A model generated the notes under the pieces. That model did no database searches and was not told the origin of the DNA. It saw only the letters and a program-made list of their open reading frames with translations. The position numbers and the translations under genes are program-made. A DNA stretch of 64,000 nucleotides, taken from contig JAFSYJ010000039.1 of assembly GCA_017450025.1 (NCBI GenBank), positions 150,681 through 214,680 on the forward strand. Reading direction: 5' to 3'. Shown here in pieces: positions 9,371 to 26,611 of the stretch. Origin of the DNA: Clostridia bacterium (GTDB taxonomy: Bacteria > Bacillota > Clostridia > UMGS1883 > UMGS1540). How positions within the stretch are numbered: the first letter of the stretch is position 1; the number at the start of each line of letters is the position of its first letter.

Positions 9371-9384
9371 CACCTAATGTTTAG

Positions 9385-9412: not shown

Positions 9413-9434
9413 ACTTTAGAAAGGAGGAAAGTTA

Positions 9435-12400: not shown

Positions 12401-12902
12401 AGCATACAGTTTGGCTGACTCGGCTTACGACAATATTACTGCTCTTGCAGACGGAACATATTCTGGAGGTACTTTTATAAATAAAAAAGTAGTTTCCTCC
12501 CCCACTATAAGAGGTGGATATATCGTTGGAGGTAAATTCTTTGCAGTAAGTAATCCAAATCGTACAATCACTAATGGGGATATATCTGGCGTAGCGAGAA
12601 TAACAATAGATAGCAATGGCATACAATCATATGATTCCAATGATAACTTTCATGGTTTTGTAGCCCATCCCTCAGATATTAATTATAATGATGGTTATAG
12701 TTTTTATACAAGAGGATATGAGATGATTAATACTGCCAGATATGTAAACGATATTAGTACTCAGTATTATGGGTTCAGGAATGGTTTAAGAACATATTTT
12801 GGAGAAATTAGAGCATCGGCAAGCAAAGGTATGATGACTGTGAGTGGTTCTTGGGATTTTTCCTCTGCTACAGTTACAGGTATCGTAGCCAGATTTGCTT
12901 GA
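9435..12902 (+). CDS. Phage tail-tip / tail-associated lysin-like structural protein (Tal/prophage tail family)
   Basis: 1155 residues. The N-terminal ~380 residues (e.g. YYNEISSITFDLPAY, VIGMRIIDVVGYGQFILVNP) resemble the prophage tail-tip hub family. A coiled-coil follows around 290-390 (RSSDDYDTFQALLSNTNSAI). The C-terminal part is Gly/Ser/Asn-rich and beta-like, as in fibres. No endopeptidase motif is obvious. TTG at 9435 is the start, 5-8 bases after AGGAGGAAA. In a siphophage virion it would cap the tube and contact the host. It follows the tape measure fragment. Confidence 0.7.
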   Translation: MIIDFSTIDFKERPTLVLRNADGKAIQALQFAHILQAEIYYNEISSITFDLPAYVDEQKTPYYDDVIGMRIIDVVGYGQFILVNPVVKNDGLKEIKSCKAYSLEYELTYKKMSLEEGTYNFWNPLSPDSTVMGIILSYLPSWKIGHIDEALIDKYRTFSEKNVNIYNFIKSTLQDTYSCIFDFDTYKREINVRAVSSVVNTKPIYISFDNLAKNIEISEDTENIFTVLDVNGAEGVDIRSVNPMGTNKIYNLDYYMNSTNFSSQIINKWTQWKQAYSESQQTYYNLTIESMLITSAIVTKKAELNELRNNDLAILENRRSVYIEQLASLPRSSDDYDTFQALLSNTNSAIRTLENKIAQVESSIEDLEDNRDTITSRLRQINNSVSFQSFFTTDELEIIDRYFKEDSISESSFVFSDVDSYSSNGTLINIEQENITITNSDRELITSNNGNTNIYTLAGGAISMPFDSSTITANIINASLEYHSDNSFILSCYIGNGSIASNAFKSATLSVVGDMSSITVSGSSIVVAIDSCSVYFTQNLTEYEKYQVEWELYKYGIDCLNKLSHPSYSFDIDAANFLMLEEFDAFAKKLTLGDKLYLSIKSANNTDADVIEPIFIGVTIDFENPQSFKLNFGDKYNLASSMFELSDLLEQSVSMGKTVDTSRFNYNNFIDSGASTVVKEFIRSALDVSKNAILSSNGMSITWDSSGIKCKKQSVGGGYDPEQLAIINNSIVFTDDAWNTAKMAIGKIIDENIVKYNETTDTTFNENKTYYYLNSGEYTAWTGGQNDWASRPTLYEKDATAYGIVAPYIVGTLLAGESLVIESAKKSGGVSVFRVDSEGAFLHNADFNIVSNNTQISLNASCGIGIGTYPLYNQDGLITNNAKFWVDASGNVNLKGTLQGCDGTFNGIIKASDFQDLSGTSMLVNKNNEYKFKADYLSLKGIEVKNGSNTTTFKVDSSGNVTVSGNITLGSGSTIDWNNVSESHLYNNEAYSLADSAYDNITALADGTYSGGTFINKKVVSSPTIRGGYIVGGKFFAVSNPNRTITNGDISGVARITIDSNGIQSYDSNDNFHGFVAHPSDINYNDGYSFYTRGYEMINTARYVNDISTQYYGFRNGLRTYFGEIRASASKGMMTVSGSWDFSSATVTGIVARFA

Positions 12903-12924
12903 TTTGTAATAAGATAATTTTTTG

Positions 12925-12953
12925 TTGATAAAATTGTGCTTTTATATTATAAT
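12925..12953 (+). promoter_or_regulatory. Promoter of the tail-module moron
   Basis: TTGATA (12925-12930) and TATAAT (12948-12953) have a 17-bp spacer. It is an independent promoter inside a late structural operon, the usual sign of a moron. Confidence 0.7.
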
Positions 12954-12984
12954 AATATCATATTATATGAGGAGGTACAATTTA

Positions 12985-13638
12985 ATGAGGCAGAATTATA
13001 AATCATTTACAATTGGCATAATAATTGGTGGACTAATTTGTGGTGGCATTCCAGTTTTACCAGACAACATATATAATGTCGTGCCAAATCCATATGCTAT
13101 AAAAATCAATGGAGCTAATAGACAAATTGAGGGATATAACATTAACGGAAACACATATTTCAAGCTACGAGATATTGGAAAAGAACTCAATTTTGATGTG
13201 TCGTTTGTGGAGGATACAATTATGGTAAGTACAGAAAGTGAAATATTAACAGAAAATAGCAATGTCGAAAATAATACAAGTAGCGATGCTAAGGGATTTT
13301 ATGATGCAGTATTTAAAAAATGGGATTACACTAATAATTCCAGTAATATTGCTATTATAGAAAAAGGTGGCGAAACATATCTTGAAGGAGGTATGGTATC
13401 GTGTATTGGTGTGGATGGAAGTTCTGTTGATACAAAATATATAGTTACAAATACTATTTTGTTTAAAGCCGATGATGAAGGAATGTGGTTGTGCAATCAA
13501 AATACAGGACAGATTTTAACCGAAAAGATACCTATATATGAAATTGCTAATAATTTATATATAAAACAATCCGATTTTGAAAGTATAATAAAACCTCAAA
13601 TAGATATTGTATTAGATGAAAATGGAATAAAAAAATAA
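12985..13638 (+). CDS. Moron: exported protein with copper-amine-oxidase-N-like domain
   Basis: 217 residues from ATG 12985, which follows GAGGAGGT. Residues ~8-27 are a hydrophobic export or anchor segment. Residues ~36-85 (YAIKINGANRQIEGYNINGN, YFKLRDIGKELNF) match the small repeat domain called Cu_amine_oxidN1, common in Clostridial surface proteins and not an enzyme. The rest is unknown. With its own promoter and a shared terminator at 13942-13968 it is likely expressed from the prophage, perhaps altering the host surface. That role is inference. Confidence 0.65.
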   Translation: MRQNYKSFTIGIIIGGLICGGIPVLPDNIYNVVPNPYAIKINGANRQIEGYNINGNTYFKLRDIGKELNFDVSFVEDTIMVSTESEILTENSNVENNTSSDAKGFYDAVFKKWDYTNNSSNIAIIEKGGETYLEGGMVSCIGVDGSSVDTKYIVTNTILFKADDEGMWLCNQNTGQILTEKIPIYEIANNLYIKQSDFESIIKPQIDIVLDENGIKK

Positions 13639-13674
13639 GTTCTGGCATTGCTTTAAGGATTTAGGGAGAAAATT

Positions 13675-13929
13675 ATGGATGAAACAAATATTGAAAACAG
13701 TGTGTTGATAGAAGGAAAAAAATATATTTATTTTCAATACATTAACAACACATTACTCAGAAATACATTTATAACAACAAAGTGGGAAGATAATGAAAAT
13801 TATAGCTTGGTATTATGTAGAAGGAATCATTCAATTATTTTGGAACCAATTCCATTTCAAGCATTTTGTGAACACGCATATATAAGCGAAGATTATATTA
13901 ACAACAATATACTCCCACTTGATAATTAA
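13675..13929 (+). CDS. Second moron gene, 84 aa, unknown
   Basis: ATG at 13675 after AGGGAG. The product (begins MDETNIENSVLIEGKKYIYF) is a small soluble protein with no recognised motif. It lies between the exported moron protein and the terminator, so it is probably cotranscribed with it. Confidence 0.6.
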   Translation: MDETNIENSVLIEGKKYIYFQYINNTLLRNTFITTKWEDNENYSLVLCRRNHSIILEPIPFQAFCEHAYISEDYINNNILPLDN

Positions 13930-13941
13930 AAATACTGTCTC

Positions 13942-13968
13942 AAAGAGGGTTATTAAGACCCTCTTTTT
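13942..13968 (+). terminator. Terminator closing the moron unit
   Basis: AAAGAGGGT pairs with ACCCTCTTT around a TATTAAG loop, followed by Ts. Confidence 0.85.
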
Positions 13969-13983
13969 ATTACGGGAGGAAAT

Positions 13984-14682
13984 ATGTCAATAATTTTACA
14001 ACAAACAAGTCGCACTCAAAATAGTGTGACTTTTTCTATAAGCGGAATAACAAATGACAGAATGACATATGTATGGATGCCTATGATGTCATCAAATGGG
14101 CAGTGGGTTTCACTTAGTAGTGCATATTCTTTAGGGTATGTTAAAAGTTTTTCTACTACATCAAACACAAACGGTAGTATTACTGTTGAATTTTATCAAA
14201 GTGACGCAAACGAATATAAAGTTTGGCAGTTTTATGTTGCGAACTATAGTGGTGGTAGTGCAACAGAAACATCCGAAATGCTAAATACCATATTAAAATT
14301 TGAGTATGAGAATACTTCAACAAAACATTCTGGTAGTTCTGTTGATGTTACAGTAGATGATTTAAGACAATTAAATTTGTTTGGAGTATATATTTTTGAT
14401 TGGATAATTTATAGCGAAGGTGGTGCATCATATTATCCACTTAAAAATGCAAGTAGCGGAGACCCTATCTTAGCGAAATATTTGGTTTTACCAGCACAAA
14501 ATATTTATAATGCTGCAAACAAATTAACATCATCATATTATAATTCTCTATCAAATAGAACCACAATAAAAAATTATTTGAGTGATATAATTAACAATGC
14601 TTCGTCTGGGTCTGCATTTTATGCAGACTATTTTAATAATATAAAAAGTGCAATCAATAATTTCAATTGCAAAACAACATAA
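13984..14682 (+). CDS. Phage structural protein, unknown, 232 aa
   Basis: ATG after GGGAGG. The N-terminal ~110 residues look like a beta-sandwich (TQNSVTFSISGITNDRMTYV), perhaps an adhesin or fibronectin-like module. The C-terminal half is helical and Asn/Ser-rich. It lies between the moron and the distal tail gene. A host-binding or baseplate role is plausible, but I do not recognise the family. Confidence 0.55.
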   Translation: MSIILQQTSRTQNSVTFSISGITNDRMTYVWMPMMSSNGQWVSLSSAYSLGYVKSFSTTSNTNGSITVEFYQSDANEYKVWQFYVANYSGGSATETSEMLNTILKFEYENTSTKHSGSSVDVTVDDLRQLNLFGVYIFDWIIYSEGGASYYPLKNASSGDPILAKYLVLPAQNIYNAANKLTSSYYNSLSNRTTIKNYLSDIINNASSGSAFYADYFNNIKSAINNFNCKTT

Positions 14683-14701
14683 GTAACAGGAGTGATAAAG
14701 G

Positions 14702-14902
14702 GTGAAAAATAAGGAAGAATTGATACAAAAACTTAGTGCGGTTATTAACGCACTTGACAATGTAGAGGTCAAAGGCAGAGTTAATTTAATGAACCTTAGC
14801 GGTTGTATTGCATTGCTTGACGAGGTATGTCAGGATATTGTAAATATGGACAATGCTGATGATACTGGCAAGGCAGAAAAACAAACAAGTTTAAAGAGGT
14901 GA
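14702..14902 (+). CDS. Small phage protein, 66 aa, unknown
   Basis: GTG start at 14702, ten bases after CAGGAG. It is helical and mixed-charge (MKNKEELIQKLSAVINALDN). Its end lies 4 bases before the next ATG, so it is translated with the distal tail gene. No function can be assigned. Confidence 0.6.
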   Translation: MKNKEELIQKLSAVINALDNVEVKGRVNLMNLSGCIALLDEVCQDIVNMDNADDTGKAEKQTSLKR

Positions 14903-14906
14903 TATA

Positions 14907-15734
14907 ATGGCTTTTTGGGGGAACTCATTTATATTCAACGATATACCGTGTGAAGACTTTGAGTTGATGATATATAACATAGACAACAATACTCAAAGCG
15001 CAGGAAAATTCGCTTCAAATGTTGAGGCGGTTGAAGACCAAATCCCCGGTCGCTGGAAACCTTTTTTTTATAATACAAAAATGACTGGAAAACTTTCATT
15101 TTCAATTGTATTTGGTGTAAACCAAGAGCGTATTGATGAAGAAAAGTATTTGGATAGATATGAACTTGAAGCCATTGCAAGTTGGTTAACGGGACATAAC
15201 AAATATCATTGGTTAGAAGTTCAACAGGAAGACCTTGAATACGCTCGGTACAAATGTATAATCACAGAACTCAAGCAGATTGAATATGGAAACTTGCCTT
15301 GGGCTTTACAGGCTACAGTTACTTGTGACAGCCCATATGCTTATCTATATCCGCAAGTGTTTGAGTACACCGTAACCAATGAGGAGACAATCCAGTTTTT
15401 TAATGAAAGTAGCCACAATGGTTTCTATATGCCTAAAATAGAATTTAGCGTTAATAGCGGAAATCTTAGTGGTGGTTTTTCAATTACAAATTTATCTGAT
15501 GATGGACGCAAAACAGAGTTCAAGGGAACTACTCAAAACCCAATACCAACGAGCGTAACAAAAGTTGAAGTTGACAATGATACAGGGATAATTACCTCAA
15601 ATGACGGAACTAATATGTATCCATACTTTAATTTCAAGTTCCTCAGATTATTGCGTGGCAACAACTCCCTTAAAATAACTGGTAGCGGGACATTGAAGAT
15701 TTTTTGTGAATTTCCTATAAATATGGGAGGTTAA
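14907..15734 (+). CDS. Distal tail (Dit)-like phage protein
   Basis: 275 residues. The start AFWGNSFIFNDIPCEDFELM and the later ITELKQIEYGNLPWALQATV region are typical of siphophage distal tail proteins, which form the hub ring that joins tail tube and baseplate. The beta-rich C-terminal half (SGTLKIFCEFPINMGG) resembles a galectin-like domain. In most siphophages Dit precedes the tail-tip gene; here it follows it by 2 kb, separated by the moron. Confidence 0.65.
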   Translation: MAFWGNSFIFNDIPCEDFELMIYNIDNNTQSAGKFASNVEAVEDQIPGRWKPFFYNTKMTGKLSFSIVFGVNQERIDEEKYLDRYELEAIASWLTGHNKYHWLEVQQEDLEYARYKCIITELKQIEYGNLPWALQATVTCDSPYAYLYPQVFEYTVTNEETIQFFNESSHNGFYMPKIEFSVNSGNLSGGFSITNLSDDGRKTEFKGTTQNPIPTSVTKVEVDNDTGIITSNDGTNMYPYFNFKFLRLLRGNNSLKITGSGTLKIFCEFPINMGG

Positions 15735-15736
15735 TT

Positions 15737-16129
15737 ATGATTGGTGAAAAAGAAATAAAAGTACATACACTCCCTGACATTGAGATGTATGGTGGAGATA
15801 CAAATGCGTGGGAAATAACAATAATGCAAGATAGCGGAACAACGATGACACCAGCAATGATTTCTGAATGTGAAATAGTATTGAGCTTGATTCCATTTAA
15901 GGTTTCGTTCGGCGTAACGAGTGGCTCCGTTGCAATAACCCCCATTTTTACAAAGACTGGGACGCTTGTTATCTCCCCTGTTGACGGCCCCGTATTCCGT
16001 TTTGAGTTTAGTGAAAACGACACAAAACGGTTACGCGGTAAGTTTATTTATCAAATAGAAGTGAGACACGAAGATGATATACGATTGTGTCAGGGCAATA
16101 TGTATATTAAACAAAATATAAACAGATAG
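15737..16129 (+). CDS. Phage baseplate-associated protein, 130 aa
   Basis: The ATG lies within bases of the Dit stop, so translation is coupled. The protein is a beta-rich single domain (DAGDTNAWEIT-like start, ENDTKRLRGKFIYQIEVRHE near the end) that resembles the small N-terminal domain of upper-baseplate proteins, but without the fibre. I cannot assign a precise function. Confidence 0.5.
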   Translation: MIGEKEIKVHTLPDIEMYGGDTNAWEITIMQDSGTTMTPAMISECEIVLSLIPFKVSFGVTSGSVAITPIFTKTGTLVISPVDGPVFRFEFSENDTKRLRGKFIYQIEVRHEDDIRLCQGNMYIKQNINR

Positions 16130-16140
16130 GATGTGTTTTT

Positions 16141-16542
16141 ATGACTACAACATATTGGTTAAATTCAATTATGGATACTATGTATAAAGACAATTCAGGT
16201 AGCTTTTATATAGGTCTTTCAAGCACTTTGCCAACTGCAAGTGGCACAAATATTACTGAGCCAAGCGGAAATGCTTACCAGAGAGTTCGAATTGGTACTT
16301 TGTCCGCAGCAGCAAATGGAGTGGTGAAAAATTCAAATGATATTCAGTTCCCGAAGAGTACAGGTACTTGGTTTGGCTCATCAAACAAAGCAAAATATTG
16401 GTTATTATTTGATGGAAATACAGCAGGTGCACACCTACTTTCTTGGGGAGAATTAAGTAAGCAAAGAATAATTGAAGGCGATACCATAGTAACGATAAGC
16501 GCAAATTCAATTAGTTTTACACTTACGGATAGCAATAGTTAA
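16141..16542 (+). CDS. Phage tail-fibre-associated protein, 133 aa
   Basis: The segment FYIGLSSTLPTASGTNITEP followed by GNAYQRVRIG resembles a widespread small phage structural protein family that often sits next to fibres. It is a beta-rich single domain. ATG at 16141 starts it, and it is in a tight run with its neighbours. The function is probably virion-associated. Confidence 0.55.
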   Translation: MTTTYWLNSIMDTMYKDNSGSFYIGLSSTLPTASGTNITEPSGNAYQRVRIGTLSAAANGVVKNSNDIQFPKSTGTWFGSSNKAKYWLLFDGNTAGAHLLSWGELSKQRIIEGDTIVTISANSISFTLTDSNS

Positions 16543-16558
16543 TATGAGGTGATTTCAT

Positions 16559-17110
16559 ATGAAAACAATAATATTTCCTTATGAAGTCCAACCGAAGCAA
16601 ATTAAATTACCTTATAAAGTCAAACCGAAGCAAATTAAATTGCTTATTGAGGATATTGCTAATAAGTTTAATCTAAGTGTTGATGATGTTCTTTATTTAA
16701 TCACGAGCACAATCGGAGACGGTGGCTTTATAAGTCAAATTGACATTCTTGGCACTGGGATTAACATCTATCTTAAAAACCAACTCGATACCGATGAGAC
16801 CGAGACGGTTTTTTTAGATTTGAACAATATTAGTTATAATGGATATAATCTAAAAACTTTAGGACAGATGGATAGCTATGAGCTTGGAGAACTTGATGAT
16901 TTAACATTCCAAGAATTTGCAAGTTTGGCTTCATCGTGGCTATACATTTCTAATTCCGAAGTTGAGTTGGATATATTAATCGAAGATGAGGTGGTATTTT
17001 TAGATTTTGACAATATTTATAATCTAAAAACTTTAGGACAGATGGATAGCTATGAGCTTGGAGAACTTGATGATTTAACATTCCAAGCTCCAAGAGGTAA
17101 TTCTTGGTAG
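16559..17110 (+). CDS. Phage protein with internal duplication; probably a rearranged gene
   Basis: 183 residues. Early repeats (PYEVQPKQIKLPYKVKPKQI) are followed by two copies of NLKTLGQMDSYELGELDDLT. At DNA level, 70 bp at 16844-16913 are repeated at 17018-17087. Just after the second copy the frame changes and stops at 17110, while coding-like sequence continues in another frame to 17330. The gene is therefore probably a fusion or duplication product. Normal function, perhaps a baseplate or fibre protein, is unclear. Confidence 0.5.
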   Translation: MKTIIFPYEVQPKQIKLPYKVKPKQIKLLIEDIANKFNLSVDDVLYLITSTIGDGGFISQIDILGTGINIYLKNQLDTDETETVFLDLNNISYNGYNLKTLGQMDSYELGELDDLTFQEFASLASSWLYISNSEVELDILIEDEVVFLDFDNIYNLKTLGQMDSYELGELDDLTFQAPRGNSW

Positions 17111-17330
17111 TGCAGATAGTGAAAATACATCTTGGGACTCTAACACTGGGTTAAGCGTTCCATCAGTTGTGCTGGAAGAAATATCTATCCGTAACATTAC
17201 AAATTTTGCGAAACCGCTTGATTTATCTGCAAATGTTGAGCTTGAGTCGGTTGATACAAGAGGAACAACTGCTGGTATTATTTCCCTGCCGTCTTATGCA
17301 CCGTATACAATCCACAAAACGACTCTGTAG
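17088..17330 (+). pseudogene. Out-of-frame C-terminal remnant of a phage tail/fibre protein
   Basis: From 17088 an open frame in a different phase reads LQEVILGSADSENTSWDSNT, later LEEISIRNITNFAKPLDLSA, and ends at TAG 17328-17330. It has no start or ribosome site. The text is protein-like and resembles the end of a leucine-rich fibre protein. It looks like the tail of a longer gene cut by recombination at the 70-bp repeat. Confidence 0.45.
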
Positions 17331-17367
17331 ATAATTAAAAATTTTATGAATGAATTGGAGGAAAGAT

Positions 17368-18879
17368 ATGAGTTATACACCAAACATTAATTTGATGCTT
17401 ACTCCCGAAGACGATACTACCACCACTTTTAAAGCGTGGCGTACAGGTATCAACGGAGAAAGCAATTCTAATATGACAAAAATTGACACAGCCATTGGCG
17501 ATTTGGACGATAACTATGAAAGAGTAAACGCAAAGGTATCGGTTATTTCTGATAAATTATTCGGAGAATCTCCTAAGACATGGGCTGATGTTCAGTCAAT
17601 TGTTCGTAACGGCGCTGCGTCTCAGTACTTTAATATCGGAGACCAGTTTGTAGTCGAAAAATTATCTAATGCTACGGCCTCTAAAGGTACAAGCACGGGT
17701 ATTAGTGATGTAACAGTAGTTGCAGCTTCGTTTGTTGAAGGCATGGGTGAAACTCATGCAGGCACATATGTATTTGTATATGACGGAAAGTCTTGGCGCA
17801 ATGATAACGGTAAGGTTGTCGATTTAGATGATTACGGTATTACCGTAACCGGTACGCCTGCTGTCGGAGACAATGTAACAATAACCGAAACCACAAGTCA
17901 GCTTAAGTTTGATATTATTGGCATTGACCATGATACTCCCACAAATTCCAACTATACTCACAGTATGACATTACAGCTCCACGACCAGTGGGGTACTGCA
18001 TTAGTATACGACAGCCCCGAAGCGGCATTTTATATTGATGAGGATACATACCCTAACGGACTTGTAGCAGGGACATATAATTTTACTTGGAATTATGCAA
18101 CAGGCAGTATGGTAAACGGAACCTATCAGTTCACTCTTACAGAAGCCGTTCCGGTTGGAGGTCAAATCGTTATCGGTACAAATTCAAGCTCTACGGCACT
18201 CACCTCTTGTAAGATAAGAACCTATGCAACGGCAGGAAGCACTACTGCTATTGAGAGTAATATTGTGATTACTTCCGGTTCTGATGGTACAAGCCTTGGT
18301 ACGATTACTTCTACGGGTGTTACAAGCAGTATAAACTGCGCACAGCGTATTATGTGGGGTTCTAACAACTGGAAATTATCAGGTATTCGTCAATGGTTAA
18401 ATACAGATAGTGCCGCAAACGCTTGGTGGGAAGCTAAAACCGTATTTGACAGACCTACAAATGCAGATAAAGCAGGATTCCTGAGAAATATGGACGCTGC
18501 CTTTCTTGATATTATTGGAGAAGTAACTAAAACAACTCAGAAAAGTGTTTCTGATGAATATGGCTTGGAAACAACTACGGAGAAGTTCTTCTTACTTTCA
18601 AGGCCAGAAGTATATGCAGGTACAGAACGCAGTCAAGACGGCGCAGACGGAAAGGTATATGCTTATTACGGCGCTGGACGTCCTGATTTGACTGCACCGG
18701 GTACGGGAGCGGATACCAACAGAATTAAATACAGAGGCGGTTCCGCACAGTATTGGTGGTTGCGTACTCCTTATTCTGGTTGCGGTAATAATGTTCGTTA
18801 TGTGAACCCGGCAGGCTACTTGCGCGACTACGGTGCCAGCTACAGTCTCGGCGTCGTCCCCGCTTGCGTAATCGTGTAA
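17368..18879 (+). CDS. DGR variable protein: phage surface/tail protein with a diversified C-type-lectin-like end
   Basis: 503 residues from ATG 17368 after GGAGG. The N-terminal part (NLMLTPEDDTTTTFKAWRTG) is typical of phage tail or baseplate proteins. The middle has beta-rich, Thr/Gly-rich domains. The last ~90 residues (WWLRTPYSGCGNNVRYVNPA and GVVPACVIV) match the CLec-fold or DUF6273-like ends of DGR targets. Residues ~464-500 are encoded by the variable repeat (18758-18867). In known systems this is the receptor-binding surface, so the protein likely mediates attachment. The stop codon lies in a hairpin needed for targeting in the Bordetella phage DGR. Confidence 0.88.
   Translation: MSYTPNINLMLTPEDDTTTTFKAWRTGINGESNSNMTKIDTAIGDLDDNYERVNAKVSVISDKLFGESPKTWADVQSIVRNGAASQYFNIGDQFVVEKLSNATASKGTSTGISDVTVVAASFVEGMGETHAGTYVFVYDGKSWRNDNGKVVDLDDYGITVTGTPAVGDNVTITETTSQLKFDIIGIDHDTPTNSNYTHSMTLQLHDQWGTALVYDSPEAAFYIDEDTYPNGLVAGTYNFTWNYATGSMVNGTYQFTLTEAVPVGGQIVIGTNSSSTALTSCKIRTYATAGSTTAIESNIVITSGSDGTSLGTITSTGVTSSINCAQRIMWGSNNWKLSGIRQWLNTDSAANAWWEAKTVFDRPTNADKAGFLRNMDAAFLDIIGEVTKTTQKSVSDEYGLETTTEKFFLLSRPEVYAGTERSQDGADGKVYAYYGAGRPDLTAPGTGADTNRIKYRGGSAQYWWLRTPYSGCGNNVRYVNPAGYLRDYGASYSLGVVPACVIV
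18758..18867 (+). repeat. DGR variable repeat (VR)
   Basis: 110 bp aligned without gaps to the template repeat at 19562-19671 (offset 804). Of 20 differences, 17 are at template adenines (T, G or C in VR). The other three are T to G, C to T and G to C, the last at the boundary. This adenine bias is the signature of DGR retrohoming. Confidence 0.93.
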
Positions 18880-18907
18880 TAATCTACCCCGACAGGGGTG
18901 ATTATTA
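18877..18907 (+). promoter_or_regulatory. Hairpin/cruciform directly downstream of VR
   Basis: Thirteen paired bases (an outer TAATAATC/GATTATTA arm plus ACCCC/GGGGT) with one bulged T and a GACA loop. A hairpin in this place is required for target recognition in the Bordetella phage BPP-1 DGR. It may also affect transcription, though no T run follows. Confidence 0.7.
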
Positions 18908-18928
18908 TTCAGGCACACAAGGTTTAGT

Positions 18929-19020
18929 ACCCTTTGCGGTTTATAAAGAAAGCAGGATTACCTGTAAAGAATTTAACCCCTTTGCGGTAAAGAATGCAAG
19001 ATGGGTTGTCCCTATGCGGT
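18929..19020 (+). repeat. Three degenerate repeats between VR hairpin and avd
   Basis: CCTTTGCGGT at 18931-18940, CCTTTGCGGT at 18979-18988 and CCTATGCGGT at 19011-19020, each with an A-rich tail. Spacings are 48 and 32 bp. Function is unknown. Confidence 0.6.
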
Positions 19021-19043
19021 AATATATGACAGAAGGTAAAACA

Positions 19044-19508
19044 ATGAGTGTACCGGAAGGACAGAGAAGCAAGGGAAAACTTGCAATAGAAACAGAAACT
19101 GAGAAACTTCTGCAATACATTTTTGATGTTACAACAAAGTATTATCTTCCGCCTGAAAAGTCTGATAACGAAAAAGTGATGCGTGACAAGATTACAGAAT
19201 TTGCGAACGCACGGTGGCTTGCAGACCATATGCGTTCAGAAATACTATCTTGTCTTGCAAACATTCAGACGGCAAACAAAATAAAGATAGAAGATAATAT
19301 CAGCTTTTATGAGCGCAGAAAATATCAAGCACAGGCAGAGCGTGCGGTCGAAAATGTCCTCACCTCTGCTACATTGATGTATAGCAGAAAATTAATCAAA
19401 AGCAAAAGAGTCAAGTATATCGGTATACAAATCGGACACATTAAAGCGATGATACAAAATTGGCGCAAGTCCGATAAGTCTCGGTATACAAAAACAAACA
19501 AGAATTAG
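19044..19508 (+). CDS. DGR accessory protein (Avd-like, four-helix)
   Basis: 154 residues, almost all helical and basic (ARWLADHMRSEILSCLANIQ, then AQAERAVENVLTSATLMYSR). Length, charge and position between the variable protein and the template fit Avd, the pentameric four-helix protein that binds the reverse transcriptase and template RNA. ATG at 19044 is chosen because AGAAGG (19031-19036) is 7 bases upstream; an in-frame ATG at 19026 is poorly placed. Confidence 0.8.
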   Translation: MSVPEGQRSKGKLAIETETEKLLQYIFDVTTKYYLPPEKSDNEKVMRDKITEFANARWLADHMRSEILSCLANIQTANKIKIEDNISFYERRKYQAQAERAVENVLTSATLMYSRKLIKSKRVKYIGIQIGHIKAMIQNWRKSDKSRYTKTNKN

Positions 19509-19845
19509 TTTATATGGGGTAGTCGTTGTATGAAGTTCCGCGCCGTTGTGGTAGCCTTCAGGGTTGCGTACTCCTAATTCTGGTAACGGTAATAATGTTC
19601 GTAATGTTAACCCGACAGGCAACTTGAACAACAACAATGCCAACAACAGTAACGGCGTCGCCCCCGATTGGGTGGTATTAGTAAGTAGTAGCACATAATG
19701 TGACCAACCTGAATACCCACGCAAGGAACGACTATCCCTGCCGTAAAAGGTGAAACAGGTATGCTGATGCAGTCTACTCAACCAACGGTAGTAGGTACTG
19801 CTATACACGGCATACAAATTTATTATTATCAGAAAGAGGTGCCAA
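19509..19845 (+). ncRNA. DGR template RNA region containing the template repeat
   Basis: A 337-bp non-coding stretch between the Avd-like gene and the reverse transcriptase. It contains the template repeat at 19562-19671, which has 33 adenines and many AAC/AAT codons. Flanking sequence on both sides would serve as primer and spacer RNA. The exact transcript ends cannot be seen. Confidence 0.8.
19562..19671 (+). repeat. DGR template repeat (TR)
   Basis: The invariant donor for VR 18758-18867. In the reading phase of VP it encodes runs of Asn codons (AAC AAC AAC AAT), the codons that give the widest set of residues when adenines are changed. Confidence 0.93.
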
Positions 19846-20949
19846 ATGAACACTATGATTGCGCCTGATGTCCGTGAGACGGTCTGTGATTTTGAAAATT
19901 TATATAACGCCATGAATGTTTGTAAAAAGAGCGTTATGTGGAAAGACAGTGTTGCAGGCTGGACAAAGAACGGAATAATCAATTGTGCCAGACTTGAAGA
20001 ACAGTTAAAGAACGGTACTTATAATATAGATGAGTATTCGCGATTTATAATCTATGAACCGAAGAAACGGGATATTGTAAGTACGCGCTTCAAGGACAGT
20101 GTTTTCCAAAGAAGTCTTTGTGACAATTATCTGACAGAACAAATCACGAAATCTTTTATTTATGATAACGGGGCTTGTCTTACAGGCAAAGGAACAGAAT
20201 TTGCCAGAGGTAGATTAGTTGCTCATATACAAAAGTTTTATCGCAAGCACGGTCGTAATGGCTATGTTTTAAAATGTGACATAACAAACTTCTTTGGCTC
20301 TACACCTCATAGTGTTGTTAAGGAAAAGATGAGAAAATTATGTGACGATGATTGGGCTTACAGTGAGGTTTGTCGAATCATTGACAGTTTCGGCACCAAA
20401 GATAATCCGGAGGTCGGTATGGGATTGGGGTCGCAGGCGACGCAGCTTTGTCAGCTTGCCGTTCTTAACGATATCGACCACGGAATAAAGGAACATAAAC
20501 GAATCAAACACTATGTCCGATATATGGACGACCTTATACTTTTACATGAAAACAAAGATACTTTGAAGGACTGCCTGCAATATATACGAGATGAGCTTGA
20601 GAAAATGGGCTTGCAGCTTAGTGCGAAGAAAACCCAAATATTTCCTATCACGCAGGCGATACACTTTCTTGGATATTCTTTTAGGCTTGCAGAAACCGGT
20701 AAGGTTGTAAAGAAGGTGTTGCCTAATAAGTTCTCTCACGAACGCCATAAGCTCAAACGTATGAAGGGATTGGTTGAAGACGGCAAACTCACTCGTGATA
20801 AAATGGACAAGTGCTTTGAATCGTGGTTGGCACACGCTACGGCAGAACCGTCTGACCGCAGGAAAGGTTCTCCTTTTCTTTGCAGAACAGATGATTATCA
20901 TAGAATTGAAAATATGAAACGATTTTATAAATCTTTATGGGAGGTTTAG
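19846..20949 (+). CDS. DGR reverse transcriptase
   Basis: 367 residues, the usual size for this class. The RT palm motifs are visible: VLKCDITNFFGS (~141-152), GMGLGSQATQ (~191-200) in place of the group II-type GLPLGNxTSQ, and the catalytic YMDD at 226-229. There is no maturase or endonuclease domain. It would copy the template RNA with errors at adenines, together with the Avd-like protein. ATG at 19846 follows AGAAAGAGGT. Its position after TR and the matching VR leave little doubt about the class. The SQATQ variant of the fingers-palm motif is a point to note. Confidence 0.93.
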   Translation: MNTMIAPDVRETVCDFENLYNAMNVCKKSVMWKDSVAGWTKNGIINCARLEEQLKNGTYNIDEYSRFIIYEPKKRDIVSTRFKDSVFQRSLCDNYLTEQITKSFIYDNGACLTGKGTEFARGRLVAHIQKFYRKHGRNGYVLKCDITNFFGSTPHSVVKEKMRKLCDDDWAYSEVCRIIDSFGTKDNPEVGMGLGSQATQLCQLAVLNDIDHGIKEHKRIKHYVRYMDDLILLHENKDTLKDCLQYIRDELEKMGLQLSAKKTQIFPITQAIHFLGYSFRLAETGKVVKKVLPNKFSHERHKLKRMKGLVEDGKLTRDKMDKCFESWLAHATAEPSDRRKGSPFLCRTDDYHRIENMKRFYKSLWEV

Positions 20950-20950
20950 C

Positions 20951-21121
20951 ATGAAGTACATTTCACTTAATGACCAGCTTATTAAAGAGCGTCAGAAAAA
21001 TGCTGCGCTCAGTGCTGAGGCGAGAAAGAACGCAGCTGATATTGATTATATTGCGATGATGTGCGATGTGGAGTTAGAGTCGGATGAAGACAATATAAAC
21101 GCGCAGATTGAGGAGGATTAA
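20951..21121 (+). CDS. Small phage protein, 56 aa
   Basis: ATG one base after the RT stop, preceded by GGGAGG. It is helical, charged and ends in an acidic tail (DVELESDEDNINAQIEED). The gene is below usual size cut-offs, but the ribosome site, the tight packing and the following XkdX gene support it. It resembles small linker proteins before XkdX in other phages. No function is assigned. Confidence 0.65.
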   Translation: MKYISLNDQLIKERQKNAALSAEARKNAADIDYIAMMCDVELESDEDNINAQIEED

Positions 21122-21126
21122 AATAT

Positions 21127-21273
21127 ATGGAACACAGTGCAAAGTTTGAAAAGGTAAAAGGCTATTATGACAGCGGACTCTGGAATGAAACGCGGGTCAG
21201 AAATGCGGTAATTAAAGGATGGATTACCGAGGAAGAATACGAAGAAATAACCGGCAATGCTTATGCTGAATAA
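21127..21273 (+). CDS. XkdX-family phage protein
   Basis: 48 residues. The core KGYYDSGLWNETRVRNAVIK followed by GWITEEEYEEITG fits the XkdX family, small proteins found near the tail-fibre end of many Firmicutes phages and phage-like elements. The role is not known. AGGAGG lies just upstream. Confidence 0.82.
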   Translation: MEHSAKFEKVKGYYDSGLWNETRVRNAVIKGWITEEEYEEITGNAYAE

Positions 21274-21286
21274 TTGGAGGGATATT

Positions 21287-21499
21287 ATGGCATTTAGTGT
21301 TTACTATTACAATGATGAACCTAACGCACCGCACCGTACATTCTTGTGTGATGCAAGAACTGATATAGATTCTCTTCCGACGCAAACTGTAACAACCGAT
21401 ATGTTTCGTAATGGCACCCCAACGGGTTCCACGGCATTGGTGGCAGAAGATGCATCTGTCTGGATTTTAAATAATGCGGGCGTTTGGACTGAATTATAA
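21287..21499 (+). CDS. Small phage protein, 70 aa
   Basis: ATG at 21287, 6 bases after GGAGG; a longer frame from 21257 is rejected. The product (AFSVYYYNDEPNAPHRTFLC) is beta-rich and ends ...NNAGVWTEL, like small fibre-accessory proteins. Unknown function. Confidence 0.6.
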   Translation: MAFSVYYYNDEPNAPHRTFLCDARTDIDSLPTQTVTTDMFRNGTPTGSTALVAEDASVWILNNAGVWTEL

Positions 21500-21511
21500 G
21501 GAGGCGATTGT

Positions 21512-21940
21512 ATGTTTGATTTTTTTCTTACATATGCAACCGCTGTAAAAAAGGCAAAGGCGTATGCAGACCAGATTACTTCTTCGTCTGCGGTTAGATA
21601 CAAAGGGACAGTAAATTATTTTTCTGATTTACCTGCCAGTGCCGAGGTCGGAGATATGTACAGCGTTAAGTATTCGGGTACATCAGGCACGAGTCCCGAC
21701 GGACGCAGATATGTTTGGGGCGAATATCAGGGTACGAATCAGTGGCTTTTATATCCGGAAGTTCTGGATGTCAAAACAGCAGACGGTACTTCTCTTGTAT
21801 TAAATGGCGTTGCGGTTATCCCGGATGAAAATATAAATTCGGCTGAAGGCGCACACAATTTAAGATATTATAATAATACATTGCAGTATTATGATGGTAG
21901 CAAGTGGGTTACGCTTTCTCTTGCGAATTTATTGTTATAA
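21512..21940 (+). CDS. Phage fibre/baseplate accessory protein, 142 aa
   Basis: ATG after AAGGAGGC. A short N-terminal helix is followed by a beta-rich domain (VRYKGTVNYFSDLPASAEVG, then GTNQWLLYPEVLDV), a pattern seen in phage tail proteins with an insert between structural and lysis genes. It is the last gene before a terminator, so it closes the DGR-linked operon. Confidence 0.55.
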   Translation: MFDFFLTYATAVKKAKAYADQITSSSAVRYKGTVNYFSDLPASAEVGDMYSVKYSGTSGTSPDGRRYVWGEYQGTNQWLLYPEVLDVKTADGTSLVLNGVAVIPDENINSAEGAHNLRYYNNTLQYYDGSKWVTLSLANLLL

Positions 21941-21953
21941 TTTAAATACGAAA

Positions 21954-21989
21954 TACCGCCGGTGAGTTTGTCTCATTCGGCGGTTTTAT
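21954..21989 (+). terminator. Terminator after the structural operon
   Basis: ACCGCCGGTGAG pairs with CTCATTCGGCGGT around TTTGT, followed by TTTT. Confidence 0.75.
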
Positions 21990-22006
21990 CATGAGGGGCG
22001 ACATAT

Positions 22007-22387
22007 TTGGAAAAGAAATTTAAAAAATCTAAAAGCAAGGTTTCCGGTCTGATATGTCATATGAAAAAATCAATTAAAAGAGTTTCCAAAAAGCGCGACA
22101 AAGAGTATTCTAAAAGATTGCTCAACAGAATTATAAATCATTCCATGTTAATGATGTGGGCTTCGTATGTGCTTGCATGGTTTGGCAAGGTAGAGATAGC
22201 CGAAACATTATCCAAAACAATTGCGACATCTGTGATTGCTGTTGTTGTTGGATATCTCGCAAAATCCGTTGTCGAAAATATAAGCAAGCATACGGACACT
22301 TTTGGTAAGAACATTGATATGGTTGATTCAGAAAATATGATTTATCAGAACCGGGAAGATGATATAAATACATATCGTGATTGTTAA
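22007..22387 (+). CDS. Phage membrane protein, 126 aa (possible holin-related)
   Basis: TTG start at 22007 after GAGGGGCG. The N-terminus is very Lys/Arg-rich (KKFKKSKSKVSGLICHMKKS). Two hydrophobic segments lie at ~50-90 (MLMMWASYVLAWFG, TSVIAVVVGYLAKSVV). Its place before the amidase and holin-like genes suggests a lysis or membrane role, but that is inferred. Confidence 0.55.
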   Translation: MEKKFKKSKSKVSGLICHMKKSIKRVSKKRDKEYSKRLLNRIINHSMLMMWASYVLAWFGKVEIAETLSKTIATSVIAVVVGYLAKSVVENISKHTDTFGKNIDMVDSENMIYQNREDDINTYRDC

Positions 22388-22403
22388 CGAGGAGGTAATG
22401 AGT

Positions 22404-22580
22404 ATGGCTAACATTAATTTAGATAACACACCCGATACTTGGGCTAAAGAAGCGGTTGACTGGGCGGTTAAAAACAACATCTTACACGGTGATGAGAACG
22501 GTAATTACAAATTACACGAAAACTGCACAAGACAGGAAATGCTTGTATTTATTGATAGATTATATAAGCTGATTAAATAA
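22404..22580 (+). CDS. Standalone SLH-like domain protein, 58 aa
   Basis: ATG at 22404, 7 bases after GGAGGT. Nearly the whole protein (DTPDTWAKEAVDWAVKNNIL, then NCTRQEMLVFIDRLYKLI) is one S-layer-homology-like unit. It is very similar to the C-terminal domain of the amidase encoded just downstream, so one may derive from the other. It may bind cell-wall polymer. Confidence 0.7.
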   Translation: MANINLDNTPDTWAKEAVDWAVKNNILHGDENGNYKLHENCTRQEMLVFIDRLYKLIK

Positions 22581-22607
22581 TCCTGTCATTAGAGGAAGGT
22601 GACTTAT

Positions 22608-23597
22608 ATGAATTTGATAAAGAGTATTATGACAAACAATCCTTGCTATACTTCTGGTCGCAAAATATCCGTAAAGGGATTGATGCTTCATAGTGTTGGG
22701 TGTCCACAGCCATCTGCACAGGCTTTTATACGAAACTGGGATAAATCTACATATAAAAGTGCTTGTGTACACGGATTTATAGATGCCAACACTGGAGATG
22801 TTTATCAGACATTGCCGTGGAACCACAGGGGGTGGCACGGTGGCGGTTCTTCAAACAATACTCATATTGGCGTAGAAATGTGTGAGCCTTCTTGTATCAA
22901 ATATACAGGAGGGTCTTCTTTTACTTGTTCAGACGCAAAAACGGCACGAGCTTGTGTTGACAGAACATACAAATCTGCTGTGGAATTATTTGCATTTCTT
23001 TGCAAAGAGTTTGGATTAAACCCACTTGCTGACGGAGTAATTGTGTCACACAAAGAAGGTCACGCCAGAGGTATTGCGACTAATCACGGAGACCCAGAGC
23101 ATCTTTGGAATGGATTAAATACAGGATACACCATGGATAAATTTAGAAATGATGTTTATACCGCTATGGGAAACAAGGTTTTGTATAATGAGCACGATGA
23201 AAGTTATATTGGAACCATCACTGCAAGTAAGCTCAACATTAGGAAACAACCCTCTGCATCTTCAGACATAATAGGTCAGCACCAATTTGGCGACACTATA
23301 GATATTTGTGCTAAAACTGATAATGGTTGGTATAAAGTTATTTACCCAAATATAGGTGCTGGATATGTGTGTGCAGACTATGTATCTGTGAAGCCCAAAA
23401 ATGCCCCTCAGAGTAATGATAAGGCAGAGGTAATAAAAGATAACACCCCAGACAGTTGGGCTGTTGAGGCGATAGATAACGCCGTAAAAAATGGTATCCT
23501 GTGCGGTGACGACAATGGCGATTACAAATTACATAATATTTGTACAAGACAGGAGATTGTTGTATTCCTATATAGACTGTATAAAAAACTTAAATAA
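22608..23597 (+). CDS. Phage endolysin: N-acetylmuramoyl-L-alanine amidase with SH3 and SLH-like domains
   Basis: 329 residues. Residues ~20-180 form an Amidase_2 domain (ISVKGLMLHSVGCPQ, WHGGGSSNNTHIGVEM, IVSHKEGHARG) with a candidate zinc site of His residues. An SH3-type domain follows (~205-265; ASKLNIRKQPSASSDIIGQH), then an SLH-like end. It cleaves the amide between MurNAc and the stem peptide to lyse the host. ATG 22608 is used since GAGGAAGG is upstream; the GTG at 22599 overlaps that site. Confidence 0.9.
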   Translation: MNLIKSIMTNNPCYTSGRKISVKGLMLHSVGCPQPSAQAFIRNWDKSTYKSACVHGFIDANTGDVYQTLPWNHRGWHGGGSSNNTHIGVEMCEPSCIKYTGGSSFTCSDAKTARACVDRTYKSAVELFAFLCKEFGLNPLADGVIVSHKEGHARGIATNHGDPEHLWNGLNTGYTMDKFRNDVYTAMGNKVLYNEHDESYIGTITASKLNIRKQPSASSDIIGQHQFGDTIDICAKTDNGWYKVIYPNIGAGYVCADYVSVKPKNAPQSNDKAEVIKDNTPDSWAVEAIDNAVKNGILCGDDNGDYKLHNICTRQEIVVFLYRLYKKLK

Positions 23598-23611
23598 GGA
23601 GCGAACGATAT

Positions 23612-24037
23612 ATGATTACGGTATTTAATTACATTATTGAACATTGGGAAGAAATCATTTGTGTTATTGCTATGGTATGTGTTGTTGCTGTAACACTCAA
23701 GGAATTCTTCTCATTACCAAAAGCAGAACAGATTAACCAGATAAAAGGTTGGCTTCTTGCCGCAGTCACATTGGCAGAAAAAGAATATGGCGGCGGTACT
23801 GGTAGAATTAAATTGTCTGCTGTTTACAATGAATTTGTAGATAAATTTCCTTGGATTGCAAGAGCACTTACATTCAGTAAGTTCAGTGAATATGTAGATG
23901 AAGCATTGATAGAGATGAGAAAGCTCTTGTCTGATAATAATGCTGTTGCAGACTATGTTGAAAACAAGGACAATGAAATTATTATTGTTGAAGAAAAGGA
24001 AGTAAAAAACGAAATTGAGATTGATAAGGAGGGATAA
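23612..24037 (+). CDS. Phage holin-like protein (single N-terminal membrane segment)
   Basis: 141 residues. One membrane helix at ~13-31 (ICVIAMVCVVAVTLKEFF) is followed by a charged helical domain (QIKGWLLAAVTLAEKEYG). This arrangement fits the LLH/phage_holin_6-type proteins next to endolysins. The acidic Glu-rich tail is unusual. ATG follows AAGGAGCG. It lies directly after the amidase. Confidence 0.7.
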   Translation: MITVFNYIIEHWEEIICVIAMVCVVAVTLKEFFSLPKAEQINQIKGWLLAAVTLAEKEYGGGTGRIKLSAVYNEFVDKFPWIARALTFSKFSEYVDEALIEMRKLLSDNNAVADYVENKDNEIIIVEEKEVKNEIEIDKEG

Positions 24038-24040
24038 ACT

Positions 24041-24430
24041 ATGACTGAAAACGAGCGCACAATGCTTATAGAAACGGAACAAAGGTCAAAGTCTAACTCT
24101 CACAGAATTGATAGTATTGAGGAAGATATAAAAGAGATGAAAGAGGAAAATAAGGCTATATACCGAATTGCAACATCTGTTGAGGTAATGGCTGAAAAAC
24201 TCGGCAACATCGAAGAAAAAGTTGATGAAACCAAGCGCAAAGTTGACGAAACTGCCAAGGCTCAGCGAGCTACTGAAGACAGATTTCTACAAAGAGTTGC
24301 TGAAATTGAAAATGCCCCAGCAGTACAGACCGCAAAGAATATCAACGAAATTAAAGTCAAGGTAATCACAGCGATTATTACATTTTTGGTAACTGGTATT
24401 CTTGGTTCTATAATATACTTTGCGAAATAA
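24041..24430 (+). CDS. XhlA-like phage protein (coiled coil plus C-terminal membrane helix)
   Basis: 129 residues. A long coiled coil (~20-95; RIDSIEEDIKEMKEENKA, then NIEEKVDETKRKVDETAK) ends in one membrane helix (~105-126; VITAIITFLVTGILGSII). This is the form of XhlA-type haemolysin or holin partners in phage lysis cassettes. It starts three bases after the previous gene, so they are coupled. Confidence 0.75.
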   Translation: MTENERTMLIETEQRSKSNSHRIDSIEEDIKEMKEENKAIYRIATSVEVMAEKLGNIEEKVDETKRKVDETAKAQRATEDRFLQRVAEIENAPAVQTAKNINEIKVKVITAIITFLVTGILGSIIYFAK

Positions 24431-24436
24431 AAAATG

Positions 24437-24611
24437 AAAAGCAATCCGACCTTGTGTCGCTTATCGACGAACGATAACACGACGCTTCACAGTTCTGCGA
24501 ACTGTTACTTTAACTGTCACTTTGGCTTTAGCCATCATAACCCCTCCCTTCAATATACCACTCTGCTTAGCAGAAAATATTGAAAGGAATATAAATCATC
24601 GGATTGCTTTC
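24437..24611. repeat. 12-bp inverted repeat bracketing the basic-peptide gene, with nested hairpins
   Basis: AAAGCAATCCGA near 24438-24449 and TCGGATTGCTTT at 24599-24610 are inverted. Inside, CTTCAATAT and ATATTGAAAG flank TCTGCTTAGCAGA. This could be two convergent terminators or a structured leader of the minus-strand gene. Confidence 0.6.
24461..24538 (-). CDS. Very basic 25-residue peptide
   Basis: ATG at 24538 follows GGGAGGGGTT. The product, 25 residues, is an alternating Val/Thr/basic pattern (KVTVKVTVRRTVKRRVIVRR) with 10 Lys/Arg. The strong ribosome site and its place between lysis genes and the prophage right end favour a real gene. I recall similar small basic peptides in Clostridial phages, but the role is unknown; nucleic acid or membrane binding is a guess. 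Confidence 0.55.
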   Translation of the reverse strand: MMAKAKVTVKVTVRRTVKRRVIVRR

Positions 24612-24653
24612 CAACATATATTATAACAGAAAAGTTTTATGGGTGTAAAACAT

Positions 24654-24682
24654 TTGACAAACTTATTGTTTCTGAATATAAT
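24654..24682 (+). promoter_or_regulatory. Perfect consensus promoter in the prophage right end
   Basis: TTGACA (24654-24659) and TATAAT (24677-24682), spacer 17 bp. No reading frame follows within 200 bp, so it may make a short RNA or feed into the next promoter region. Confidence 0.7.
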
Positions 24683-24783
24683 ATTAGTAGAGGTTTTATC
24701 GATAATAATATTGATAGAAGATTTTGATTCGCTACCAAAATGAACCTTACAGCGCTTAAAGTTTAAAAACAGCAAAAAATGTA

Positions 24784-24812
24784 TTGACTTTTATATGAAA
24801 ATATGTTATAAT
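24784..24812 (+). promoter_or_regulatory. Promoter of the leader RNA and three-gene operon
   Basis: TTGACT (24784-24789) and TATAAT (24807-24812), spacer 17 bp, upstream of the putative leader. Confidence 0.75.
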
Positions 24813-24818
24813 ATATAT

Positions 24819-24930
24819 GTTGTACTTGTTAGTAAGCACAGTACCTAAGATTCAGGCATATCATAAGTCCTGCGGAGGGAAGATACAATATTGCGAAATG
24901 TATTAGCCCGCCGATTAGGTGGGTTTTTAT
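24819..24930 (+). ncRNA. Candidate leader RNA / attenuator ending in an intrinsic terminator
   Basis: About 110 nt lie between the 24784-24812 promoter and a terminator, CCCGCC-GATTA-GGTGGG-TTTTT (24907-24928). Before the terminator is a GATACA...TGTAT hairpin and a GTCCTGCGGAGGGAAG stretch. The terminator stands 15 bases before the ribosome site of the next gene, so the operon must be read through. I do not recognise the RNA class. It could also be a free small RNA. Confidence 0.55.
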
Positions 24931-24944
24931 ATTGGGAGGAAAAA

Positions 24945-25337
24945 ATGAGTAGCATACGAAAGACATATGGCATAGAATCTCTATACGAATGTTTGCCAAA
25001 ATTTGGGGTATTGCTTGTTACCTTAATTATTGGGTTGGCGTGCGGTTATAAAGATTCTTATGCTTCTTTTTATTTAACAGTAATGGTTCAATCTCTTGCA
25101 AATAGTTATGATTCAGCATCATATTTAAAAGGATATGATATACATATTACTGTGGGCTATGTTCTCGTGTTTATATTTTCGGTAATTGCATTTACGATAG
25201 CAGTTTTACATTTTACTGCTTTTGGGAAAATGTGTGATAACAAGATTTTCGTTATTATAATTGGTATAATACTTAGTGCTCCATTGGTGATTTCTTGTGT
25301 TCAAGCATATTTATTAATAAAAAACAAACAATATTGA
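24945..25337 (+). CDS. Membrane protein, 130 aa (first gene of the right-end operon)
   Basis: ATG at 24945 after GGGAGGA. Three hydrophobic segments are visible (FGVLLVTLIIGLACGY, VGYVLVFIFSVIAFTIAVL, IFVIIIGIILSAPLVI). No family is recognised. It is followed at short spacing by a one-helix membrane protein and a soluble helical protein. Confidence 0.6.
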   Translation: MSSIRKTYGIESLYECLPKFGVLLVTLIIGLACGYKDSYASFYLTVMVQSLANSYDSASYLKGYDIHITVGYVLVFIFSVIAFTIAVLHFTAFGKMCDNKIFVIIIGIILSAPLVISCVQAYLLIKNKQY

Positions 25338-25357
25338 AATAGGAGGATGGTGACATT

Positions 25358-25651
25358 ATGTTGAAATTTATTATATTATGGATAGCAGGACTGATTTTGA
25401 TATCTATAGTTGTAGCTGAGCTCTTATCTCAATTTGTTTTAAAATTCCATTGTAAAAAAACAACATTGGATTTGTCTATTGATGATGACATTGATAAAAA
25501 TTTTGGTAATATGAGAATAGAAAATTATACATTTGCCCCCATGTCATCTTTACAAAAAAGGGGGTCTTGGCGTATTGCTCAAGACCAAGTATTATGTTAT
25601 GATGATTACAAGAGTCTTGAAGCGGAAGAGTACAGAAAGTATTTAAAGTGA
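25358..25651 (+). CDS. Single-pass membrane protein, 97 aa
   Basis: ATG after AGGAGGATG. Residues ~3-24 are a membrane helix (KFIILWIAGLILISIVVAEL); the rest is a charged soluble tail. Second gene of the operon. Unknown function. Confidence 0.6.
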   Translation: MLKFIILWIAGLILISIVVAELLSQFVLKFHCKKTTLDLSIDDDIDKNFGNMRIENYTFAPMSSLQKRGSWRIAQDQVLCYDDYKSLEAEEYRKYLK

Positions 25652-25659
25652 GGATTTAG

Positions 25660-26220
25660 ATGAATCAAGTAGATATATTGAGAGAATTAAACTCAGAAAA
25701 AAACCTAAAGAAATTAAGCGAGCTTGGCGAACTTCATATTCTCACTAAACATTATTTATTGCTTGCTGAAGAATTATCTGAAGATGGAATTTCTTTTTTG
25801 CAACCACTAAAGGAACACCGTGATGCGTATGACCATTTTATGCGAATATTTGCTTTACCGCACAGAAATGAGCAGGAGTTTGGCAAAAATTTTGATGTAG
25901 TCAAGTATATTGAAGAAAACGTAAGCAAGGCTTACGGGCATGAATATCGTGCTTTTTTTGATACTGCTGATTGGTTGACATTTATATGTCGTAAATATAT
26001 ACGACAAGCCTTAAGTTATCATTCAATTAAAAAACGATATGAAAATGATTATAAAGATTATAACGATATAAAGTCGATTATAAATGATATCCCCTATAAA
26101 ATAGCTAAATATAGGGAGCAGAAAGATATTAGTGATAACAATGTAATTAAGGAAGTGTATAAATATAAAGATACATTAGAAGAGTTGTTAAAGATATATA
26201 AGCGTATTAAGGATATGTAA
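25660..26220 (+). CDS. Soluble helical protein, 186 aa, unknown
   Basis: ATG after GAGG, 8 bases past the previous stop. It is helix-rich and charged, with regular Tyr/Lys/Glu (YHSIKKRYENDYKDYNDIKS) and no known motif. Third gene of the right-end operon. Possible partner of the two membrane proteins; a superinfection-exclusion or similar lysogen function is speculative. Confidence 0.6.
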   Translation: MNQVDILRELNSEKNLKKLSELGELHILTKHYLLLAEELSEDGISFLQPLKEHRDAYDHFMRIFALPHRNEQEFGKNFDVVKYIEENVSKAYGHEYRAFFDTADWLTFICRKYIRQALSYHSIKKRYENDYKDYNDIKSIINDIPYKIAKYREQKDISDNNVIKEVYKYKDTLEELLKIYKRIKDM

Positions 26221-26460
26221 AGAGAGCCAATCTGTCAGAGTCAGACGGCTCACTTTTTTTCTGTCGGAATAGAGACTTTAAACCTTCATCAAGTGCAGAT
26301 GTAAACTGCTAAAAAACAAATAAAGGGACTTCTGTTTTTACACAGACAGTCCCAAAATTTTTGCCGAGTGAGGCGGCTGTTTTTATTTATGAAAGAATAG
26401 TTTTATATAAACAAAAAAAGACAGACCAGTTGATTAAACCAGTCTGCCTTTATTTTTTGC
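26221..26460. terminator. Cluster of three hairpin terminators at the prophage right end
   Basis: GAGCC...GGCTC then a T run (about 26222-26260); GGGACT...AGTCCC then AAAATTTTT (about 26326-26360); and CAGACCAG...CTGGTCTG-type stem with A and T runs on either side (about 26420-26455). The cluster insulates the operon from lysS. Confidence 0.65.
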
Positions 26461-26581
26461 TTCATACTTGTATTATGAGCTTTAGTCATTTTTAGTAAAT
26501 TTTTAGTAAAGTAATGATTAAAATTTTTAAAATCACAACATATTGTTTGATTATGCTGATATAGCATACTACATATTGCGT

Positions 26582-26611
26582 TTTATTTCTCTATCGGCTT
26601 CATTGTCGGGA
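26582..26611. repeat. Attachment site copy C, the functional lysS 3' end
   Basis: Overlaps the last codons of lysS; minus strand encodes PTMKPIEK-stop. It matches copy B at 27 of 30 positions. Integration here rebuilds the end of lysS, which explains the intact gene. Confidence 0.82.

Follow-up and report, generated by a model that had tools for sequence, protein, structure and literature searches.

Does a prophage in which no head genes are recognized still house a diversity-generating retroelement (DGR), what would such an element diversify, and how recently has it been at work? These questions are raised by a stretch of 64,000 nucleotides (the window) from the genome of a Clostridia bacterium, in which the initial annotation had placed a complete DGR within a prophage remnant. 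The host genome carries spoIVA, which marks the host as spore-forming and Bacillota-like. We conclude, with a probability of about 0.96, that the locus is a complete BPP-1-type DGR in the degenerate tailed-phage prophage of this spore-forming, Bacillota-like host. Open reading frames (ORFs) and profile matches bear out the annotated order of variable protein (VP), Avd, template repeat (TR) and YMDD reverse transcriptase (RT) (Table 1), and adenine bias, RT, Avd, VP, an IMH/IMH* difference and a GRNA-type hairpin were all found, as befits the DGR class. The order and strand of the parts are identical to those of BPP-1 (mtd-VR, avd, TR, brt), in which VR likewise lies at the 3' end of a tail protein gene and differs from TR adenine-specifically. 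The window differs from BPP-1 in its RT, only ~27% identical, in its VP, a DUF6273 protein, and in the defective state of its prophage.

Table 1. Positions of the DGR parts and of the prophage remnant in the window
Feature	Position	Strand	Description and basis
Prophage remnant carrying the DGR	8715..26611	.	About 17.9 kb; tail and lysis profiles, flanking direct repeats
VP gene	17368..18879	+	503 aa; ORF, VR at 3' end
VR diversified core	18758..18862	+	105 bp; 16/18 differences from TR at TR adenines
Putative IMH, VR 3' end	18863..18876	+	GCTTGCGTAATCGTG region; position and comparison of six loci
DNA hairpin/cruciform right after VR	18877..18907	+	Stem TAATAATC(T)ACCCC / GGGGTGATTATTA, loop GACA
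avd (accessory variability determinant)	19044..19508	+	phrog_3206 'Avd protein of DGR', E 7.5e-12
TR core (template repeat)	19562..19666	+	105 bp; VR/TR alignment
IMH* counterpart, TR 3' end	19667..19680	+	ATTGGGTGG...; six-locus comparison
TR-RT spacer	19667..19845	+	Noncoding; conserved in comparison with L042
DGR reverse transcriptase	19846..20949	+	367 aa; YMDD, motif LGSQATQ, profiles, tree

The repeat pair was reproduced exactly as first described: VR (18758-18867) and TR (19562-19671) form a gapless alignment of 110 bp, and 17 of their 20 differences fall at TR adenines, of which the alignment holds 33 (hypergeometric p ~2e-8). Read from TR to VR, the 17 changes are A to T seven times, A to G seven times and A to C three times. 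Within the 105-bp core, 16 of the 32 adenines are changed (50%) as against 2 of the 73 other sites (2.7%). Adenine changes in a DGR template are expected never to create stop codons, and no TR codon here could be turned into a stop in this way; nearly all codons altered between TR and VR read AAC or AAT in TR. No second VR was detected in the window or elsewhere in the genome (completeness, 87.5%). Two copies lying 804 bp apart could also be the product of an ordinary gene duplication, with differences left by chance or selection. We rejected this explanation, to which we grant next to no probability, in view of the adenine bias, the adjacent RT, Avd and hairpin, and two patterns described below, the concerted evolution of TR and VR with those of a related genome (G016) and the adenine-only differences that recur in 32 of 40 relatives.

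The profile searches that the initial annotation had proposed agree with the DGR identity. The RT matches RVT_1 (E 6.6e-17) and phrog_1423 (E 1.7e-79), and Avd, with a preferred start at 19044, matches phrog_3206; no sequence match to Avd was found among solved proteins, and the Avd copy of G016 is 68% identical. The closest solved relative of the RT is 8ub7 ('Reverse transcriptase'; E 1.7e-23), which we take to be the Bordetella DGR bRT and which outscores maturases and retron-type RTs by a wide margin. Motif 4 reads LGSQATQ and fits LGxxx[ST]Q, the SQ-type of DGR RTs, here with T in place of S; in those group II and retron RTs from the same order in which it is recognizable, the motif reads QGxxxSP. 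In a quick tree of 39 RTs, with some long branches elsewhere in it, 18 TR/VR-bearing RTs lie on one side of a branch with support of 82. The window RT groups with that of the human-gut phage MT835664 and those of loci L030, L003 and L032, for each of which a TR/VR pair can be demonstrated; group II and retron RTs stand apart, and the sets that contain the window RT hold DGR RTs only. Tree and motif 4 together place it among DGR RTs, in agreement with the first reading. That an RT of another class (retron, group II intron or defence RT) should have come to lie beside VR/TR by chance is extremely improbable in the light of this placement and of the BPP-1-type bRT as nearest solved RT; the NCBIfam group II and Drt models do match the protein, but weakly, and all far below their cut-offs.

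The 3' ends of the two repeats differ in a manner that is shared across loci. In all six homologous-VP loci that were aligned in detail (the window, L042 of G016, L079 of phage MT835664, L030, L032 and L003), the terminal sequence is GATTG in TR and GCTTG in VR. Because this difference is fixed in all six, we excluded it and the next change, G to C, from the mutagenesis count; of the 17 adenine differences originally ascribed to mutagenesis, 16 stand, and the last (GATTG to GCTTG) is instead a fixed IMH*/IMH difference. As judged from these alignments, GATTG/GCTTG plus the adjacent G/C difference marks the IMH*/IMH boundary, and the putative IMH encodes the conserved PAC-I terminus of the VP. 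The hairpin that follows takes in the VP stop codon and is predicted to fold at -9.8 to -10.3 kcal/mol (z -4.4), with no shuffle equally stable. G016 has a hairpin with a GACA loop at the same place, less stable than that of the window, and the loop reads GATA in L030 and L079. BPP-1, too, has a hairpin with a 4-nt GRNA-type loop after VR; this target-site hairpin is required there, its loop consensus is GRNA, and its stem measures 7-10 bp (PMC3240598). Our candidate appears to fit this model, with a GACA loop that agrees with the GRNA consensus and a position that agrees with that of the BPP-1 hairpin; its stem departs from BPP-1 in being partly AT-rich and bulged, with a GC-rich portion that is shorter, at 5 bp.

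Profiles and the predicted fold both support the annotated view that a phage tail protein is the diversified target. The VP has a tail-fibre-like N-terminus and a DUF6273 C-terminus (PF19789, aa 331-502; E 4.9e-19). An AlphaFold2 model of aa 171-503, built from the window protein and 39 homologues from viral contigs, reached a pLDDT of 92.8 (40 sequences); an earlier fold with 5 sequences had given 42. C-type lectin domains, 4eps among them, predominate in the Foldseek and VIA-align lists for this model, and its structural matches include 1ixx_B (Z 7.0, rmsd 2.7, 99 aligned) and 4eps (Z 6.1), Z values being middling for all except 9qa6. The fold prediction that had been suggested as a check thus yielded a confident model, and the VP C-terminus is predicted with high confidence to share the C-type-lectin-like fold of published DGR targets. 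No sequence match was found between the VP and solved proteins. Of solved structures, 9qa6 matches the model best (Z 19.1, 28% identity); it represents the N-terminal portion of an IgA peptidase from Thomasclavelia ramosa, and a similar fold is thus also present in a gut bacterial enzyme.

DUF6273 targets have been described as C-lec folds, with 4eps, a Bacteroides fimbrial C-lec protein, used for comparison (PMC10743442), and since VRs have been located in the DUF6273 C-termini of Faecalibacterium phages (PMC11792537), this class of target is already known. As in the window, VR lies in the DUF6273 C-type-lectin-like C-terminus in the Faecalibacterium phages Roos, Pioen, Lelie and CP11 and in phages nd4/nd12 (PMC11792537, PMC10743442); the window differs from these in having a single VR, a single target and no Ig domains after the VP. 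By analogy with BPP-1, the tail-associated VP is probably a receptor-binding protein. We also considered a domesticated cell-surface adhesin and put it low, because the profile matches of the VP are phage protein families and no secretion or anchoring signal was seen in it by eye.

By analogy with BPP-1, an RT-Avd complex would reverse transcribe an RNA that contains TR and the spacer preceding the RT gene, placing random bases opposite the adenines of the template. The resulting cDNA, now mutated, would take the place of VR in the 3' end of the VP gene, directed there by IMH and the hairpin that follows VR, and the outcome would be the randomization of mainly those C-type-lectin-like domain residues that TR encodes with Asn codons, with TR itself unchanged. 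The spacer is probably part of the DGR RNA: between the window and G016 its identity is 85%, in comparison with 76% for the RT gene and 70% for the VP gene, a degree of conservation consistent with a functional RNA. An Rfam search of the window returned no match.

Alignment of VR and TR in related genomes, proposed at the outset, shows that the adenine-biased pattern recurs: for 32 of 40 VP homologues, a TR lies ~500-700 bp downstream and differs from VR at 0-2 non-adenine sites. As a positive control, the VR/TR scan recovered the BPP-1 pair, with 19 adenine and 0 other differences. The closest phage record with an intact cassette, MT835664, has the same order VP-Avd-TR-RT, an RT 58% identical to ours, and 16 adenine and 0 other differences between VR and TR; it keeps a packaging gene (terminase match), whereas none was found in the window prophage. 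In a related cassette, two phages (L111 and L113) that are 99.9% identical in the VP body and RT region, with identical TRs, differ at 20 of 90 VR sites, 18 of them at TR adenines. G016, a genome of the same order as the host, carries the most closely related DGR, in a syntenic VP-Avd-TR-RT-lysis module (VP 69% and RT ~79% identical). Its TR differs from that of the window at 12 sites. At 10 of these each VR follows its own TR, and at the remaining 2 one VR does so; the mirrored differences indicate that TR overwrote VR after the two lineages split, and we read them as concerted evolution of TR and VR between the two prophages.

Unlike that of the window, the RT frame of G016 is broken, by a one-base shift in a T run (L042 9360-9400), and its integrase is truncated; this tyrosine integrase (L042 14914-17445) is cut short where an opposite-strand serine recombinase gene starts. 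A further RT, in L002, reads frameshifted near 8873, and either decay or assembly error would account for both shifts. L002 has neither VP nor TR and was dropped as a further source of VRs. Two DNA patterns retrieved no identical or near-identical VR/TR from IMG/VR, no near-match of the prophage was found among phage records, and the RT was not found in five other genomes of the host's family.

These comparisons give good support to mutagenic homing in the recent evolutionary past. The annotated claim that the system was recently active holds in this evolutionary sense only, on the strength of the contrast between changed adenines and other changed sites and of TR-to-VR copying after the split from G016; the two non-adenine differences in the core imply that some time has elapsed since the last full homing.

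The prophage was rightly called a remnant. It is bounded by an attachment-like 35-bp direct repeat (8715-8749 and 26577-26611; 31/35 identical) that 0 of 400 random region pairs matched as well. The right copy, formed by the 3' end of lysS (tRNA synthetase class II match), encodes PTMKPIEK-stop; the left encodes PTMKPLDK-stop. Between them lie a truncated tape-measure-like ORF, a minor tail protein, a Dit-like protein, the VP and DGR, a holin and an amidase. The tape-measure-like ORF (8714-9370), called by reading the sequence and without a profile match, is cut off at the left repeat, which leads directly into it; misassembly may have produced this left end, but the repeat favours a genuine boundary. 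No terminase, portal, capsid or integrase was recognized between the repeats, either with phrog_2, the profile used for terminase, or in the annotation of the larger ORFs, which served for other terminase families and integrase, and it is this result that makes 'remnant' the correct term.

Several other features of the neighbourhood deserve mention. The prophage amidase and a small neighbour protein (22377-22577 and 22599-23594) both have SLH-type (S-layer homology) matches, and an intact Fic/DOC-family gene (7170-8324, minus strand) adjoins the left end of the prophage. A second prophage (30531-42663, minus strand) has profile matches to an amidase, a holin, a terminase large subunit, a head protein, a portal and a tail fibre, and contains the sole phrog_2 terminase of the genome.

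The DGR is a canonical one of a well-known kind; its survival in a headless phage without packaging or integration genes is a little unusual. Because the prophage is decayed, there may be no virion left to carry a diversified VP. Homing may have taken place while the phage was intact and ended with its decay, the RT merely not having been lost yet, an account that bears on present activity and leaves the DGR identity untouched. We give it slightly less than an even chance. The missing terminase, the unrecognized head and integrase genes and the cut tape-measure-like ORF speak for it, as do a tail gene (16559-17110) with a perfect 70-bp direct repeat (16844-16913 and 17018-17087) and an apparent continuation in another frame, and the frameshifted RTs of two close relatives (G016 and L002); VP, Avd, RT, TR, IMH and hairpin are nevertheless all intact in the window, and non-adenine differences between VR and TR amount to only 2/73. 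The same intactness beside lost head genes would be expected if the cassette were functional and the tail/receptor module of the remnant were used in trans by other phages, or recombined into them, as a reservoir of receptor-binding tips. The second prophage (~30.5-42.7 kb), which has terminase, portal and head genes, is close by, and related DGR modules occur in diverse phages, but this prophage is on the opposite strand and we saw no sign of shared tail-tip genes; we regard such use as unlikely. More doubtful still is the proposal that selection keeps the DGR and its tail-tip/lysis neighbourhood after loss of the head, the remnant then supplying other phages, or the host, with a diversifying receptor-binding module.

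With the reading that we prefer, a complete BPP-1-type DGR in a degenerate prophage, a bacterial lineage that has been poorly sampled gains a well-documented DGR whose target is a C-type-lectin-like DUF6273 domain. Sequence alone suffices here to reveal copy-and-replace evolution between related prophages. If the cassette is active in its headless remnant, it would provide a test case for the fate of DGRs after phage decay.
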